Below are positions 5,352 to 34,078 of a stretch of DNA of 42,363 nucleotides, piece by piece. How positions within the stretch are numbered: the first letter of the stretch is position 1; every line of letters begins with the position of its first letter. The stretch comes from Bacteroidota bacterium (GTDB taxonomy: Bacteria; Bacteroidota; Bacteroidia; Flavobacteriales_D; Sanyastnellaceae): NCBI GenBank assembly GCA_027593035.1, contig JAQCJQ010000009.1, positions 1-42,363 on the forward strand, given 5' to 3'. The notes beneath the pieces were generated by a model that was given only the letters and a program-made list of their open reading frames with translations, had not been told where the DNA came from and made no database searches. Made by a program: the position numbers and the translations under genes.

Positions 5352-8162
5352 TTAATTGGCGACAATGTTGATGATGCGACCAAGGACAACAATGATTTTT
5401 CGAATGGTCTTGCCTTCAATTTGTTTGGCGGTCCGCTCGTCGGCCAGCGCCATGGATTCCACGTCTTCTTTCGTTGCCGTGGTTGGTGCTTCCATTTGAA
5501 AGCGGACTTTTCCGTTGAAAGAGACGGGATACATGACGTGATCGCTGGTCAACCATTGCGCGTCCCATGCGGGCCAATCGGAAGACACAGCGAGTCCGAT
5601 ACCGCCAGCCTTTTGATGCAATTCCTCCGCCAAATGAGGCGCTACAGGGCTGACTAGAATGGCCAATGTTTGGAGGAGAGAGGCTGAATGGCATTCGGCC
5701 TCTGTCAATTCATTGACTCCGATCATCAGTGCGCTGATCACCGTATTGAAGGCGTGACGATCCAAGTCTTCGGTGACCTTCCGAACCGTTTTGTGGTAAG
5801 CTCGCAACGCCTCTTCCGATGGGTCTTCTTCCGTGACATCGTCATACAAGCGCGTGAGCTTGCGAAGAAAGTTGTGAACTCCACTGATGCCTTGTGTGTC
5901 CCAGGGTTTATGCTGAGTCAATGGCCCAAGGAACATTTCATAGCAACGCAAGGTGTCAGCGCCATACCGCTCGATGAGATCATCGGGAGTTTGGACATTG
6001 AATTTGGACTTGGACATTTTCTCGACCTCGAATCCACAGGAATAGGTGCCATCCTCATTCAATAGGAACTCAGCATTGGCATATTCACTTCGCCAGTTTC
6101 TGAAACCTTCCAGGTCCAACTTGTCGGCTTGAACGAGGTTGATGTCCACATGCAGACGCTGGGTCTTGTGTTCCTTTCGCTGATCGGCTGTCACGAAGGT
6201 TTGTGTGCCTTGTATGCGATAAACAAAGCTCGAACGTCCCAGAATCATGCCCTGATTGATCATCTGTTTGAACGGCTCATCGAAGCCAATGTGCCCACGG
6301 TCAAATAGGAATTTCGTCCAAAATCGCGAATACAAGAGGTGGCCTGTGGTGTGTTCAGCGCCGCCTACATACAAATCCACTTGCCCCCAGTAATCCGATT
6401 TTTCTCGACTGCAAAATGTGTCGTGGTTCTGAGGATCCATGTAGCGCAAGAAGTACCAACTGGAGCCTGCCCAACCTGGCATGGTGTTGTACTCCATGCG
6501 GTCTCCTTGGAAGACATTCCAATCGCTTTTATGTGCTCGCGCTAAAGGAGGCTCTCCTTCCGAAGTTGGCAAGTATGCATCAATAGGAGGCAGCGTGACT
6601 TGCTGGTCCATAATGAGTTTGGGAACGTCGTTTTCGTAATAAATCGGGAACGGCTCTCCCCAGTAGCGTTGTCGGCTGAACACAGCATCCCGAATTCTGA
6701 AGTTGACTTCTCCTTGTCCCTTGCCCAATGCTTCAAGCAAGGCGATGGCTTTTGGAATGGCGTCGCTGGCATGAAATCCGTTCAAGGAGTCCGAATTGCA
6801 GAGCACGGCCTTCTTATCGGTGCAGACGGCCTCTTGCGCTTGGTGACCGAGGAAAATCGAGGGGATGGGCAAGTTGAAATGTTGCGCAAACTTCCAATCC
6901 CGCTCATCTCCAGAGGGAACAGCCATGACGGCCCCCGTGCCGTATCCCGCTAGCACATAATCAGCAATCCAAATGGGCACTTTCGCTCCCGTGATCGGAT
7001 GCAGGGCAAATCCGCCTGTGTCGCATCCGGAAATGTCCTTGTCTCCTCCGGCTTGTCGGTCCCGTTCAGATTTGCGCGCAGCGGTCTCTTGGTACGCTTT
7101 CACTGATTTTGCTTGACCCGCAGTGGTGATGACCTCGACAAGCGGATGTTCTGGAGCGAGGACCATGAAACTGACACCGTAGATCGTGTCAGGTCGGGTT
7201 GTGAACACTTCGATGGTGCTCCCCTCATGCCCTTGGACGCCAAAAGATACAGAAGCGCCTTCGCTCCGACCAATCCAATTCCGTTGCGCTTCTTTGATGC
7301 TATCCGTCCAATTCAGGCCATCCAAATCAGCCACCAATCGATCGGCATACGCCGTGATGCGCATAATCCATTGGCGCATGCGCTTGCGAACAACGGGATG
7401 CCCGCCACGTTCACTCAAACCATCTTTGACCTCGTCATTGGCGAGTACTGTTCCCAACTCGGGACACCAGTTCACCTCACTATCGGCGAGATAGGCCAAT
7501 CGAAATTGCATTAAGATGGCGGCTTTGTCCTGATCGCTGCAGGCATTCCAGAGGGCTGGTGTTAGCGTGCCCGAAAAATCAGCGCCCCAACGTTCTAGAA
7601 CATCGGCGGGCAGCGCATCCCACCAATTGGAAGAGCAAGCGAGGCTTAGTGCATTCCATTGATTTCCTTCAATGGCTTCAATCAACTCATCGATCGGACG
7701 AGCACAGGCTTTTTCTTCGTCATACCAAGAAGCAAAGAGCTGGCCGAAAATCCATTGCGTCCAACGGTAATATGCCGGATCACTGGTCCGAACCTCCCGT
7801 TCCCAATCGTAGCAGAACCCCAATTGACCCAATTGCTCTCGGTAGCGGGCGATGTTAGTTTCTGTGGTAACCGCAGGATGTTGTCCCGTTTGGATGGCGT
7901 ATTGCTCAGCGGGCAATCCAAAGCTGTCATATCCCATCGGATGGAGTACGTTGAAACCACGCAACCTCTTGTAACGCGCGAAAATATCACTGGCTATGTA
8001 GCCCAAAGGATGTCCGACATGCAAGCCCGCTCCCGAAGGATAGGGAAACATATCCAACACGTAGTATTTCGGGCGGTCACCCGTTTCGGTAACTCGATAG
8101 GCCGCTTCGCGGTCCCATGTTGCTTGCCAGCGTTTCTCGATTGAGCGAAAGTCGTAATCCAT
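5352..8162 (-). CDS. leuS: Leucine--tRNA ligase
   Basis: This cytosolic class I aminoacyl-tRNA synthetase charges tRNA-Leu. The 936-residue protein has the HIGH-type motif HVGH near residue 47, the LeuRS editing (CP1) region, and the KMSKS loop in EKMSKSKFN toward the C-terminal third. The anticodon-binding and C-terminal domains follow. ATG 8162 gives the family-typical start MDYDFRSIEKRWQ; an upstream TTG at 8183 would add seven residues and overlaps the promoter. A perfect TACCTTTG element lies 18 nt upstream. The gene is divergent from the polysaccharide deacetylase gene. Length and motifs are complete, so it should be functional. Confidence 0.97.
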   Translation of the reverse strand: MDYDFRSIEKRWQATWDREAAYRVTETGDRPKYYVLDMFPYPSGAGLHVGHPLGYIASDIFARYKRLRGFNVLHPMGYDSFGLPAEQYAIQTGQHPAVTTETNIARYREQLGQLGFCYDWEREVRTSDPAYYRWTQWIFGQLFASWYDEEKACARPIDELIEAIEGNQWNALSLACSSNWWDALPADVLERWGADFSGTLTPALWNACSDQDKAAILMQFRLAYLADSEVNWCPELGTVLANDEVKDGLSERGGHPVVRKRMRQWIMRITAYADRLVADLDGLNWTDSIKEAQRNWIGRSEGASVSFGVQGHEGSTIEVFTTRPDTIYGVSFMVLAPEHPLVEVITTAGQAKSVKAYQETAARKSERDRQAGGDKDISGCDTGGFALHPITGAKVPIWIADYVLAGYGTGAVMAVPSGDERDWKFAQHFNLPIPSIFLGHQAQEAVCTDKKAVLCNSDSLNGFHASDAIPKAIALLEALGKGQGEVNFRIRDAVFSRQRYWGEPFPIYYENDVPKLIMDQQVTLPPIDAYLPTSEGEPPLARAHKSDWNVFQGDRMEYNTMPGWAGSSWYFLRYMDPQNHDTFCSREKSDYWGQVDLYVGGAEHTTGHLLYSRFWTKFLFDRGHIGFDEPFKQMINQGMILGRSSFVYRIQGTQTFVTADQRKEHKTQRLHVDINLVQADKLDLEGFRNWRSEYANAEFLLNEDGTYSCGFEVEKMSKSKFNVQTPDDLIERYGADTLRCYEMFLGPLTQHKPWDTQGISGVHNFLRKLTRLYDDVTEEDPSEEALRAYHKTVRKVTEDLDRHAFNTVISALMIGVNELTEAECHSASLLQTLAILVSPVAPHLAEELHQKAGGIGLAVSSDWPAWDAQWLTSDHVMYPVSFNGKVRFQMEAPTTATKEDVESMALADERTAKQIEGKTIRKIIVVLGRIINIVAN

Positions 8163-8180
8163 CTTCGTAATCTGATTGGA

Positions 8181-8188
8181 CAAAGGTA
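8181..8188 (-). promoter_or_regulatory. -7 element (TACCTTTG) of leuS
   Basis: Perfect TAnnTTTG on the minus strand, 18 nt before ATG 8162. TTTC lies 17 nt upstream of it as a possible weak -33 box. It sits back to back with the deacetylase promoter. Confidence 0.65.
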
Positions 8189-21711: not shown

Positions 21712-21730
21712 TTATTGAATAGTGCATCCC

Positions 21731-23437
21731 ATGTCGAAGTCTCTCCATCCGAATTCTTTCCCCGAACGTGGCAGTTTGAACTTGCCTGCAATTGCTCACG
21801 ACATTTTGGGCCAGTGGGAGCGTGAAAACACCTTTCAGAAAAGCATCGATTCTCGACCCGAAGATCGACCCTATGTTTTCTTTGAAGGCCCCCCTTCGGC
21901 CAACGGAAAACCGGGTATTCACCATGTCATGGCACGCGCCATCAAGGACATATTTTGCCGCTTTCACACGCTCAAAGGGTACCGCGTTGAGCGCAAAGCG
22001 GGATGGGACACGCACGGGCTTCCGGTGGAGCTGGGAGTTGAGAAGGAGCTGGGCATCACCAAAGAAGACATCGGAGTCAAACTTTCCGTCGAAGAATACA
22101 ACGAAGCCTGCCGCGAAGCGGTGATGCGGTACACCGATATATGGAACGATCTGACGCTGAAAATGGGGTACTGGGTGGACATGGAATCGCCCTATGTGAC
22201 CTATGAAAACAAATACATTGAGAGTGTTTGGTGGCTGATCAAGCAACTCAATGACAAAGGCCTGCTGTATAAAGGTTATACCGTACAACCGTATAGCCCT
22301 GCAGCAGGAACGGGTCTGAGTACCCACGAATTGAATCAACCGGGCGCGTACCGCGATGTCAAAGACACGACGGTGGTCGCTCAGTTCAGAGCGTTGCCTG
22401 AATCGGCGGATCGTATACGACAACGCATCGCTCCCGAGAAGGCAAACGATTGCGCGAACCTACCTGTTGACTTTTTGGCGTGGACGACCACGCCCTGGAC
22501 GCTGCCTTCCAATACGGCCTTGACCGTAGGATCGAACATCCAGTACGTTCTGGTTTCAACGACCAACCGCTATACCGAAACCAAAGGGTTGGTGATCTTG
22601 GCGGAGGCGTTGTTAGCCAAACAATTTGGAGGGAAAAACGCGCCAGAACACGAGGTTTTGGCCCGGTTTGAAGGCCAAGAACTGTGCGGCGCTCGCTACG
22701 AACCGCTATTTGATTGGGCAGAACCCATGGACGGCATAGCGGGGGCTTACCAGATCATTCCTGGAGACTTCGTGACCACAGAAGACGGCACGGGGATTGT
22801 TCATACGGCACCGACATTTGGTGCTGATGACGCCCGCGTGGCCAAAGCTGCCGGCGTACCTCCAATGCTCGTCGATGACGGCACAGGACACGGTGTGCCG
22901 CTGGTGGATATGCAAGGCCGCTTTCGCGAGGGCATTGGGCCGTTAGCAGGACGGTATGTCAAACAGGAATTTTACCCGGATGGAACGGCGCCTGAACGGT
23001 CTGTGGATGTGGAAATTGCCATTCTTCTGAAAGAGCGGGGCCAGGCATTTTTCGTCGAGAAGTACGAGCACAATTATCCGCATTGCTGGAGAACGGACAA
23101 GCCAATTTTGTACTACCCGATGGACAGTTGGTTTATCCGGTCCACGGCTGCCAAAGAGCGGATGCAAGAGTTGAATGACACGATCCGGTGGAAGCCGGCA
23201 AGCACGGGTTCTGGTCGCTTCGGCAAGTGGTTGGAGAACTTGAATGATTGGAACCTCAGTCGATCACGATTCTGGGGAATTCCCATTCCAATTTGGAGCA
23301 CAGAGGATGGGTTGGAGCAGGTGTGCATCGGCTCGATTGAAGAACTCAAAGCGCGTTGTGACGAAAGTGTTTCCGCGGGCTTGATGGAGGTCAATCCCTT
23401 GGCTGAGTTTGTAGCGGGGGACTTCTCCAAGCTTTAA
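21731..23437 (+). CDS. ileS: Isoleucine--tRNA ligase, N-terminal part (interrupted by in-frame UAA)
   Basis: This 568-residue N-terminal part of IleRS has the HIGH-type motif (GIHH at 62-65), the editing domain with WTTTPWTLPSN, and the catalytic block LSRSRFWGIPIPIW. It ends at TAA 23435-23437 after GDFSKL. The rest of the protein continues in the same frame from about 23450. Eight codons, including the stop, separate GDFS from LHKH, the same number as I recall in flavobacterial IleRS, so nothing appears lost. The local residues do not match the family, however; two compensating one-base indels would give KLKSNAFY, which fits better. Sequencing error, a real nonsense mutation, readthrough or a split enzyme are all possible. 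ATG 21731 is preferred to GTG 21722. Confidence 0.85.
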   Translation: MSKSLHPNSFPERGSLNLPAIAHDILGQWERENTFQKSIDSRPEDRPYVFFEGPPSANGKPGIHHVMARAIKDIFCRFHTLKGYRVERKAGWDTHGLPVELGVEKELGITKEDIGVKLSVEEYNEACREAVMRYTDIWNDLTLKMGYWVDMESPYVTYENKYIESVWWLIKQLNDKGLLYKGYTVQPYSPAAGTGLSTHELNQPGAYRDVKDTTVVAQFRALPESADRIRQRIAPEKANDCANLPVDFLAWTTTPWTLPSNTALTVGSNIQYVLVSTTNRYTETKGLVILAEALLAKQFGGKNAPEHEVLARFEGQELCGARYEPLFDWAEPMDGIAGAYQIIPGDFVTTEDGTGIVHTAPTFGADDARVAKAAGVPPMLVDDGTGHGVPLVDMQGRFREGIGPLAGRYVKQEFYPDGTAPERSVDVEIAILLKERGQAFFVEKYEHNYPHCWRTDKPILYYPMDSWFIRSTAAKERMQELNDTIRWKPASTGSGRFGKWLENLNDWNLSRSRFWGIPIPIWSTEDGLEQVCIGSIEELKARCDESVSAGLMEVNPLAEFVAGDFSKL

Positions 23438-23452
23438 AAGCAATGCCTTTTA

Positions 23453-25147
23453 TTGCACAAGCACGCTGTCGATATGGTTGTTCTCAAGAGTTCGGATGGA
23501 CGGCCAATGCGCCGGGAATCGGATTTGATTGACGTGTGGTTTGACAGCGGATCCATGCCCTATGCACAGTGGCATTATCCTTTTGAAAACAAAGAAAAAA
23601 TTGACCAAGGAACCGCGTTTCCAGCGGACTTCATTGCCGAAGGGGTTGACCAGACCCGTGGGTGGTTTTTCACACTGCACGCCATCGCCACCATGGTCTT
23701 TGATTCGGTCGCCTACAAAAGTGTGATTAGCAATGGATTGGTGTTGGACAAAAACGGCCTAAAAATGTCCAAGCGTCTGGGCAACGGAGTCGATCCATTT
23801 GCGACACTCGAGCAATACGGGCCGGATGCGACGCGTTGGTATATGATTTCGAATGCGCAGCCTTGGGACAATTTGAAATTCGATGAAAACGGCATTGGTG
23901 AAGTGCAGAGGAAATTCTTCGGGACCTTGCACAACACCTACAATTTCTTGGTGCTGTACGCTAACATCGATGGTTACAATGGATCCGAGGATGCCATTGT
24001 GTATGAACAACGTCCGGAAATTGACCGCTGGGTGCTTTCCCGACTGCATTCAATGATTGCCGAGGTGGATCAGGCCTACCAGGACCTTGAGCCCACCAAA
24101 GCGGCCCGGGCGATTCAATCATTTACCATTGACGAATTGTCCAATTGGCATGTGCGCTTGTCGCGTCGCCGGTTCTGGAAGGGTGAGTTGACAGAGGATA
24201 AGATGAGTGCTTATCAGACGCTGGTGGAGTGCTTGCAAACCGTCGCCATTTTGGGGTCTCCAATTGCACCGTTCTATCTAGATCGTCTGTTCCGTGATTT
24301 GCAAGAAGGACTTGGACAGGCGAGCGACATGGAATCCGTCCACCTTGCAACATTCCCAGCGGTTAAAACGGCTTGGATTGATTTGGAATTGGAGGCGCGC
24401 ATGGCGCTTGCGCAGCAACTTTCATCCCAGGTGCTATCGCTTCGAAAGCGCGAGAAACTGCGAGTTCGACAACCGCTACGTAGGATATTGGTCCCCGTTC
24501 TAAACGAAGATATGGAGCGCAGAATGCGGGCTGTTGAACCGCTCATTTTGAGTGAGGTGAATGTCAAAGAATTGCAAATTCTTCGGGATGGAGCGGAATC
24601 AGATGTCACCATTGTGAAACGCATCAAAGCAGACTTCAAGCAGTTAGGACCTCGTTTTGGCCAACGAATGAAAGCGTTGGCAGCAGCCGTAGGGACCATG
24701 GATGCAGAAGCAATCCAGCAGTTAGAATCCAACGGAAGCATTGATGTGCACCCTGCGGATGGCTTGGGGCCCGCAGAAGTGCTTTTGTCGGATGTGGAAA
24801 TTGCGACAGAGGACATTCCGGGATGGCTGGTTTCGAGTGCTGCTGGTGTGACCGTGGCATTGGACATTGTATTGGATGACGTCTTGCGCTCAGAAGGCAC
24901 TGCTCGGGAGTTGGTCAACCGCATTCAAACGATGCGCAAAGAGTCAGGCTTCGAGGTGACCGATCGCATTGAAGTGCAGTTGAAAGCGGAAAAGGCCATC
25001 CAACAGGCGATTGCATCGAATATGGATTATATTCGGGCCGAGACGTTGGCCGATGAGATCCACTGGAGTGAAGTGGACTCAAAGGAGGAGGTGATTTTAG
25101 ATGATGGTCAATCCATTTGGATGACCTTGAAAAAAGTGAACAGATAA
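23453..25147 (+). CDS. ileS: Isoleucine--tRNA ligase, C-terminal part (downstream of in-frame UAA)
   Basis: This 564-residue remainder of IleRS is in the same frame as the upstream part. It begins LHKHAVDMVVL and contains RESDLIDVWFDSGSMPYAQW, the KMSKS loop as KMSKR (about 104-108), the anticodon-binding domain, and a C-terminal region typical of Bacteroidota IleRS. All catalytic elements missing from the upstream part are here, so the gene is complete except for one stop. If translated separately it could start at TTG 23453 or ATG 23474; I see no clear ribosome-binding site for either. No second ileS is in the window, and the enzyme is essential, so some way of making active enzyme must exist in the living cell. 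Confidence 0.85.
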   Translation: MHKHAVDMVVLKSSDGRPMRRESDLIDVWFDSGSMPYAQWHYPFENKEKIDQGTAFPADFIAEGVDQTRGWFFTLHAIATMVFDSVAYKSVISNGLVLDKNGLKMSKRLGNGVDPFATLEQYGPDATRWYMISNAQPWDNLKFDENGIGEVQRKFFGTLHNTYNFLVLYANIDGYNGSEDAIVYEQRPEIDRWVLSRLHSMIAEVDQAYQDLEPTKAARAIQSFTIDELSNWHVRLSRRRFWKGELTEDKMSAYQTLVECLQTVAILGSPIAPFYLDRLFRDLQEGLGQASDMESVHLATFPAVKTAWIDLELEARMALAQQLSSQVLSLRKREKLRVRQPLRRILVPVLNEDMERRMRAVEPLILSEVNVKELQILRDGAESDVTIVKRIKADFKQLGPRFGQRMKALAAAVGTMDAEAIQQLESNGSIDVHPADGLGPAEVLLSDVEIATEDIPGWLVSSAAGVTVALDIVLDDVLRSEGTARELVNRIQTMRKESGFEVTDRIEVQLKAEKAIQQAIASNMDYIRAETLADEIHWSEVDSKEEVILDDGQSIWMTLKKVNR

Positions 25148-32734: not shown

Positions 32735-34078
32735 ATGAGCTGTAGCAATTGCAAAAAAGGTGAGGACGGAAATCCGCGAGGATGTAAGAGCAATGGAAAT
32801 TGCGGAACGGGTGGTTGTGGACCCATGACGGTATTTGATTGGTTGGAAGGTGTGGCGCTTCCAACGGGGCAGTCTGCTTTCGACGTCGTCGAAGTGCGCT
32901 TCAAGGCCAATCGCAAAGGATTCTTTCGACGATCTGGCGGGTTGGATGTGCAAGTGGGTGATGTCATCGCTGTAGAATCTGATCGGGGCCATGACATTGG
33001 TGTAGTCAGCTTGCGCGGAGAATTGGTCCGTGCTCAGATGAACGCCAAAAAAGTCCGGGACGATCATGAACTGAGCAAAGTCCTGCGCAAAGCAACCCAA
33101 GAAGACATTGACTTGTGGCAAAATGCCCGGATGCGTGAAGGAGAGACCATGACGAAAAGTCGTGAGATCATTCAGCGTTTGGGATTGCGGATGAAATTGT
33201 CTGATGTTGAGTTTCAAGGTGACGGCAAAAAGGTCACTTACTATTACATCTCAGATGACCGGGTTGATTTTCGGGATCTGGTGCGTGAATTGGCCGGAGC
33301 CTTTGCTGTTCGCGTCGAAATGCGACAAATTGGAGCACGGCAAGAAGCTGGGCGCGTTGGAGGCATTGGCGTGTGTGGAAGGGAGTTGTGTTGTGCAAGT
33401 TGGTTGACCGACTTCCGCAGCGTGAGCACTTCCGCAGCGCGCTACCAGCAGATGTCATTGAACCCCCAAAAATTGGCGGGTCAATGCGGAAAGCTAAAGT
33501 GTTGTCTGAATTTTGAGTTGGACCAGTATGTGGAATCGGTCAAAGAATTCCCTTCTCCCAATGCCAAAATTAAAATGAAGGAAGGCCGTGCAGTCGTCTT
33601 CAAAATGGACATTTTCAAGAAGCTCGTTTATTTGCTTCACCTCGATGCTCCGGCAGCTGGTCCTGTGCCGGTTTCGCTGGAAGACATGAAGGAATTGATG
33701 GCGATGAATGAACGCGGAGAATATCCCCATTCCTTGTCAGAATTTGCACTGCAAGAGGAGCCCGATGAGGTGGATGCGGTGTATTCCAATGTAGTTGGTC
33801 AGGACAGCTTGACTCGATTTGACGAACAACGCCAGAAGCGAAGAAAAAAAGGAGGCCGACCAGGATCCGGAGGCAATTCGAATCGTTCGGGAGGTCGAAA
33901 TAACCGAGGACGAAGCAAGGATGGTCCGAAGGCTGCTGCCGCATCGCCGGGAGGTCGATCCGGAGATGCCAAACCGGCATCGAATGCAGAAAGCGGACAA
34001 AACCGAGGTCGGGGACGCTCCAGAGGGAAGGGCGGTCCAACCCCGAGTTCGGAGAACAACCAGAAAAAGGAAGGATGA
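32735..34078 (+). CDS. ricT: RicT/PSP1 (YaaT-like) domain protein
   Basis: This 447-residue protein has a PSP1 domain with the conserved RicT cysteine pairs in CGRELCCASW and CGKLKCCLNFE. In Bacillus, RicT works with RicA and RicF as a [4Fe-4S] complex that aids RNase Y-dependent RNA processing; the role in Bacteroidota is not established. The N-terminus adds five cysteines (3, 6, 17, 23, 28), possibly another metal site. The last 65 or so residues are basic, Gly/Arg/Ser-rich and probably disordered. ATG 32735 gives MSCSNCKKGE, the usual start in the phylum. Its stop overlaps the gldH start as ATGA. Confidence 0.9.
   Translation: MSCSNCKKGEDGNPRGCKSNGNCGTGGCGPMTVFDWLEGVALPTGQSAFDVVEVRFKANRKGFFRRSGGLDVQVGDVIAVESDRGHDIGVVSLRGELVRAQMNAKKVRDDHELSKVLRKATQEDIDLWQNARMREGETMTKSREIIQRLGLRMKLSDVEFQGDGKKVTYYYISDDRVDFRDLVRELAGAFAVRVEMRQIGARQEAGRVGGIGVCGRELCCASWLTDFRSVSTSAARYQQMSLNPQKLAGQCGKLKCCLNFELDQYVESVKEFPSPNAKIKMKEGRAVVFKMDIFKKLVYLLHLDAPAAGPVPVSLEDMKELMAMNERGEYPHSLSEFALQEEPDEVDAVYSNVVGQDSLTRFDEQRQKRRKKGGRPGSGGNSNRSGGRNNRGRSKDGPKAAAASPGGRSGDAKPASNAESGQNRGRGRSRGKGGPTPSSENNQKKEG

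Follow-up and report, generated by a model that had tools for sequence, protein, structure and literature searches.

The window, as we call the whole stretch of 42,363 nucleotides that was analysed, carries an ileS gene interrupted by an in-frame TAA. Comparison with relatives revealed that a block of seven codons has been replaced as a unit, and not the stop codon alone, to an extent far beyond chance. This block is probably a local assembly or consensus error and not a real feature of the organism, which from its named matches we infer to be a member of the Flavobacteriales.

The interrupted ileS gene

The ileS frame extends from GTG 21722 to the TAA at 25145-25147, with ATG 21731 the likely true start. 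The sequence-only reading had described two open reading frames in one frame, 21722-23437 and 23453-25147, split by TAA 23435-23437, and this description was confirmed. The features of the gene are as follows.

21722..23437, plus strand: 5' part of ileS, 571 codons, up to the in-frame TAA; catalytic core with GIHH signature, and editing insert (PF00133 profile 2-268 of 414, TIGR00392 profile 5-500)
23432..23452, plus strand: replaced block of 7 codons (571-577), reading L-stop-KQCLL, from comparison with 111 relatives
23435..23437, plus strand: in-frame TAA, codon 572 (Asn in 111/111 relatives), from the alignment of relatives
23453..25147, plus strand: 3' part of ileS, 564 codons from TTG; remaining catalytic core with KMSKR, anticodon-binding domain and DUF5915 (PF00133 profile 281-412, PF08264, PF19302; TIGR00392 profile 512-854)
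23474..23476, plus strand: in-frame ATG, codon 585, the earliest possible ATG restart; Met in 0/110 relatives aligned there

On the Pfam profile of the class I core, PF00133, the break falls after position 268 and before position 281. Pyruvate kinase is encoded upstream of ileS, and downstream lie a 123-aa ORF (no Pfam match at E 1e-8), signal peptidase II and gcpE. The window is collinear nearly throughout with a related genome, G019 (81.4% DNA identity over 38.8 kb and 78.4% over 2.8 kb), and the whole ileS gene shares 93% amino acid identity with that of G019. A second class I synthetase gene of the window, of LeuRS type (5352-8183, 943 aa), is intact; ileS alone of the two is broken.

The split gene retains the class I synthetase core and the anticodon-binding domain expected of an IleRS2 (PF00133, PF08264). 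TIGR00392, the ileS family, was the best match of each half taken alone, at 559 and 378 bits, both below the whole-protein cut-off of 621. Among solved chains, the window IleRS matched 8c8u-8c8w and 8c9d best (8c8w, 777 bits), while 8c9f and 1ffy scored 277 and 270 bits. It is nearer to the solved IleRS2 than to IleRS1, with the types of the entries inferred from PMC10485003 and from general knowledge; the entries 8c8u-8c8w and 8c9d appear to be the Priestia megaterium IleRS2 structures described there. Like IleRS2, the window protein has the GIHH signature, KMSKR, the anticodon domain and a C-terminal DUF5915; unlike IleRS2, which is encoded in a single uninterrupted frame, it has an in-frame TAA at codon 572 inside a replaced 7-codon block, absent in 111/111 relatives.

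The class I signature of the window gene, at 21914-21925, is GIHH and not HXGH. Among 112 aligned loci, window included, 95 have GIHH and 17 GVHH. The non-canonical GXHH motif is tied in PMC10485003 to mupirocin hyper-resistance of IleRS2. The motif is already described; here the GIHH-bearing ileS is the sole housekeeping IleRS.

Comparison of the block with relatives

The comparison set comprised 116 loci: that of the window, 35 from a genome search and 80 named ones (80 of 593 matched stretches). All but the fragments L034-L037 span the site, giving 112 loci and 111 relatives, among which the named and the other genomes may contain the same assembly twice. The comparison with close relatives that the sequence-only reading had called for was thereby made, and none of the 111 has a stop in the block, nor is a stop at the site shared within the genus or the order. 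Its count of eight codons from GDFS to LHKH held for the window and for 111/111 relatives, in all of which the block has the same length, free of gaps. Its view that nothing else was lost did not hold. Where the three closest intact relatives agree, 6/6 block residues are changed in the window, against 25/1001 elsewhere (Fisher p 5e-10). The window reads SKL-stop-KQCLLL, G019 (93% identity) STSNYNVFDL, and G015 and G008 (89%) SKSNYDVFDL. Asn 572, Tyr 573 and Asp 577, invariant in 111/111 relatives, are a stop, Lys and Leu in the window, and codon 576 is I, F, V or L in the 111 relatives.

The residues at the stop had been noted earlier as unlike the family; a profile built from the 111 relatives gave the in-frame reading -21.7 bits. 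A reading shifted by one base, KLKSNAFY, had been proposed as fitting much better. It does score above the in-frame reading, at -12.2 bits, but falls far short of the relatives (15.3 to 28.6 bits, values slightly flattered because each relative is included in the profile), without recovering the invariant N, Y and D.

At the nucleotide level, an ungapped pairing of the 21 bases with any of the four closest relatives gives 5/21 matches, and a pairing shifted by one base gives 9 to 12 (12/21 for G019), which is better than for shuffled sequences (p 0.022 for G019, p 0.013 summed over the four). In a MAFFT alignment with G019 and G015, the region is bordered on either side by a single 1-base gap specific to the window, the two gaps lying about 30 bases apart, and opposite one-base slips at the two edges of the block are possible. 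The similarity in the shifted register suggests altered native rather than foreign sequence, which mutation or error would both give. The sequence-only reading had offered two homopolymer errors or a recent pair of compensating indels; the absence of the stop from every relative and the shifted pairing agree with an artefact or a recent lesion, but two homopolymer errors alone are insufficient, as the shift leaves 9 to 12 of the 21 bases different from those of the four closest relatives.

The alignment of relatives revealed no other internal stop in the window ileS. Elsewhere, one TGA was found in G016 and one in a G010 fragment; neither falls inside the L016 and L037 alignments, and both are taken to sit at the ends of the genes. 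Three named loci, L107, L109 and L110, also have stops, at codons 4, 1138 and 1139, which are positions at the ends of the alignments. The same species was not seen among the 80 listed of 593 named contig matches, a list that may omit near records and in which the best identity was 67%.

A source for the block was sought widely. No copy was found in the window's own genome at up to 3 mismatches (34-mer) or up to 2 (20-mer), nor in 21 same-genus genomes at up to 3 mismatches (24-mer). Direct and inverted donors within 300-base flanks were no better than shuffles (p 0.29 and 0.79), and a hairpin at the block was not significant (z 0.19). Of 163 phage records matched at E up to 10, none covers 80% of the query, and the 8 listed of the 163 have E 0.6. 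Six plasmid records (E 2 to 6) included no convincing match, and the exact letters of the block occurred 0 times among viral contigs. A simple chimeric join of related species was also considered and is not supported: exact runs of at least 20 bases shared with 27 same-genus loci flank the site, and none covers it.

Selection, copy number and assembly quality

Changes unique to the window were counted at sites where G019, G015 and G008 agree. On the window branch, synonymous and nonsynonymous changes numbered 83/12 in the 5' flank of the block, 74/19 in the 3' flank and 2/10 in the block (17 sites); on the sister branch they numbered 78/25 and 71/17 in the flanks and 0/2 in the block (7 sites). 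Both ileS flanks were under ordinary purifying selection for nearly all of the window branch. Such constraint is consistent with an error or with a lesion of very recent origin, and would not conflict with a working split gene either. The signs of a pseudogene were absent: the flanks reveal no relaxed selection (83/12, 74/19) and the gene contains no further stop.

The draft assembly that contains the window (G000) comprises 172 contigs and 2,223,789 bases, with 93.56% completeness and 2.77% contamination. The earlier statement that no other ileS is visible was upheld by a search of the genome: tblastn at E up to 1e-5 found no second ileS in the 2.22 Mb of this 93.56% complete assembly. The only other match to IleRS, on contig 158 and 24% identical, was rejected as a second copy, being a valine--tRNA ligase (1097 bits to NF004349, cut-off 704). 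An ileS match is present in all 21 other same-genus genomes, with no second copy besides contig-split pieces, and in 40/40 genomes of a wider set that includes the window's own. In 4/21 same-genus assemblies (G009, G010, G012 and G014) the matches are spread over two contigs; thus the gene is often broken in drafts of this group. None of these contig breaks lies at the window's stop site. In G009 (C106/C107; L127, L128) a contig ends in ileS shortly downstream of the stop position, and the site itself is normal.

For an estimate of assembly quality elsewhere, ORFs of at least 120 aa were compared between 496 kb of G000 (the window and 40 contig pieces) and 330 kb of G019. Raw disruption flags fell on 21/80 ORFs in G000 and 28/84 in G019, mostly overlapping antisense ORFs. 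After ORFs overlapping a longer one by more than 30% were dropped and stops within 15 residues of an alignment end ignored, 55 ORFs remained each way, with two flagged in G000 and two, on one contig, in G019. The G000 flags were ileS and an ORF with a stop at residue 22 beside a Met. We read the latter as an upstream extension of the start, which would leave ileS as the only convincingly disrupted gene among the 55. In the other direction, the counterpart in G019 contig 7 (L149, about 5520-6983, 79.5% identity) of a 491-aa ORF on G000 contig 53 (L167) contains an internal stop and is possibly a disrupted gene. Window-specific gaps in the 42-kb alignment, inspected outside the first 283 bases and the poorly aligned, partly coding 3.1-3.7 kb, were 1 base long at 1956, 37295, 38842 and 40768 and 3 bases long at 34020; they lie outside genes or sum to steps of three. 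That the assembly is clean where tested makes a widespread error process less likely but leaves room for a single faulty spot.

Origin of the interrupted frame

The block occurs in no relative examined and has normal length and sharp boundaries; the gene around it is single-copy. A true null of a single-copy ileS should be lethal, and the absence of a second ileS from the assembly makes this expectation apply here. Because the altered block is tight, unique to one assembly and in a single-copy essential gene, error is the best reading. The ileS of the organism would then be intact, and the 21 bases of the block (23432-23452, perhaps beginning a few bases before 23432) would be a consensus error in a fragmented draft, arising for example from a poorly covered or wrongly closed stretch. 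This supposes that IleRS is essential here and that the reads would not support the block. Counting against error are the otherwise clean 55-ORF comparison with G019, whose one other flag was read as a start extension, the preserved net length, which random damage keeps only part of the time, and the lack of a run shared with same-genus loci across the site, as a simple chimeric join would leave.

It is also conceivable, though unlikely, that the block is real and records a very recent clustered mutation in the sampled DNA, one event scrambling about 21-31 bases, such as opposite one-base slips with extra changes or a template switch. Carriers would be inviable on this copy alone or reliant on a second ileS in unassembled genome, and at 93.56% completeness a second copy could be missing. 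The shifted pairing that beats shuffles and the 1-base gap at each edge, about 30 bases apart in the G019 and G015 alignment, are what such an event would leave. Against it, no donor was found within 300 bases or elsewhere at the mismatches allowed, no hairpin was significant, the 21 same-genus genomes hold no second ileS and the gene has no other stop. Among the 8 listed of 33 titles on template switching, none concerns this gene.

The sequence-only reading had also raised a two-chain enzyme, readthrough and RF2-like recoding; with a stop in the block in 0/111 relatives, none of these has comparative support. A natural two-chain IleRS, in which chain 1 ends at the TAA and associates with a chain 2 begun at TTG 23453 or ATG 23474, is very improbable. 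Each half is intact and evolves under purifying selection, and the break coincides with a gap of some 22 residues in 8c8w, the solved chain nearest to the window protein. In a model of the G019 orthologue (mean pLDDT 74.9, pTM 0.59, good for local secondary structure only) the site is predicted with modest confidence to be coil with short helical turns. Two further points in favour are post hoc: the block is A+T-rich (15/21 bases, reached by 2% of 21-base windows in the gene), and relatives lack the ATG at 23474. However, the catalytic core is divided by the split, a chain begun at ATG 23474 would lose LHKHAVD, of which L, H, K and D are invariant in 22/22 aligned relatives, and a natural split synthetase would be expected to share its split with relatives, of which 0/111 do, including three at 89-93% identity. 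We give very little credence to a lineage-specific and very young form of such a split, in which one local event would have exchanged a peripheral linker for an A+T-rich stretch that carries a stop, with restart at TTG 23453 or the new ATG 23474. In Aquifex aeolicus, the LeuRS split reportedly falls between the editing insert and KMSKS. That LeuRS consists of two subunits, as cited in PMC9976931 and PMC3436685. The window gene would resemble it as a class I synthetase in two chains if its split were natural, but no relative of the window ileS is split, and the two window halves are putative chains whose association would be hypothetical.

Production of one chain by UAA readthrough, or by two programmed frameshifts, +1 at CUU-UAA and a later one in reverse, is barely credible. 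Readthrough would preserve normal length, and CUU-UAA-A formally resembles a +1 slip site. The prfB (RF2) gene has a +1 frameshift site, CUU then the stop codon UGA, with a Shine-Dalgarno-like element spaced about 3 bases from the slip codon. The window likewise has CUU then a stop codon, but the stop is UAA and not UGA, the G-run (GGGGG, 23416-23420) is 11 bases before CUU with no Shine-Dalgarno-like element just before the slip codon, a second, opposite shift would be needed, and the site is conserved in no relative. Neither product would contain N, Y or D, and both have scores well under those of all relatives. Readthrough, recoding or two-chain production is not known for IleRS, and a literature search on IleRS premature stops and readthrough found nothing on the subject.

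In draft genomes, an interrupted conserved gene can owe its stop to a short replaced block that goes beyond homopolymer logic, and a profile of relatives reveals such a block at once. If the stop in the window ileS were real, a single-copy synthetase would need to be made by readthrough, by recoding or as two chains.
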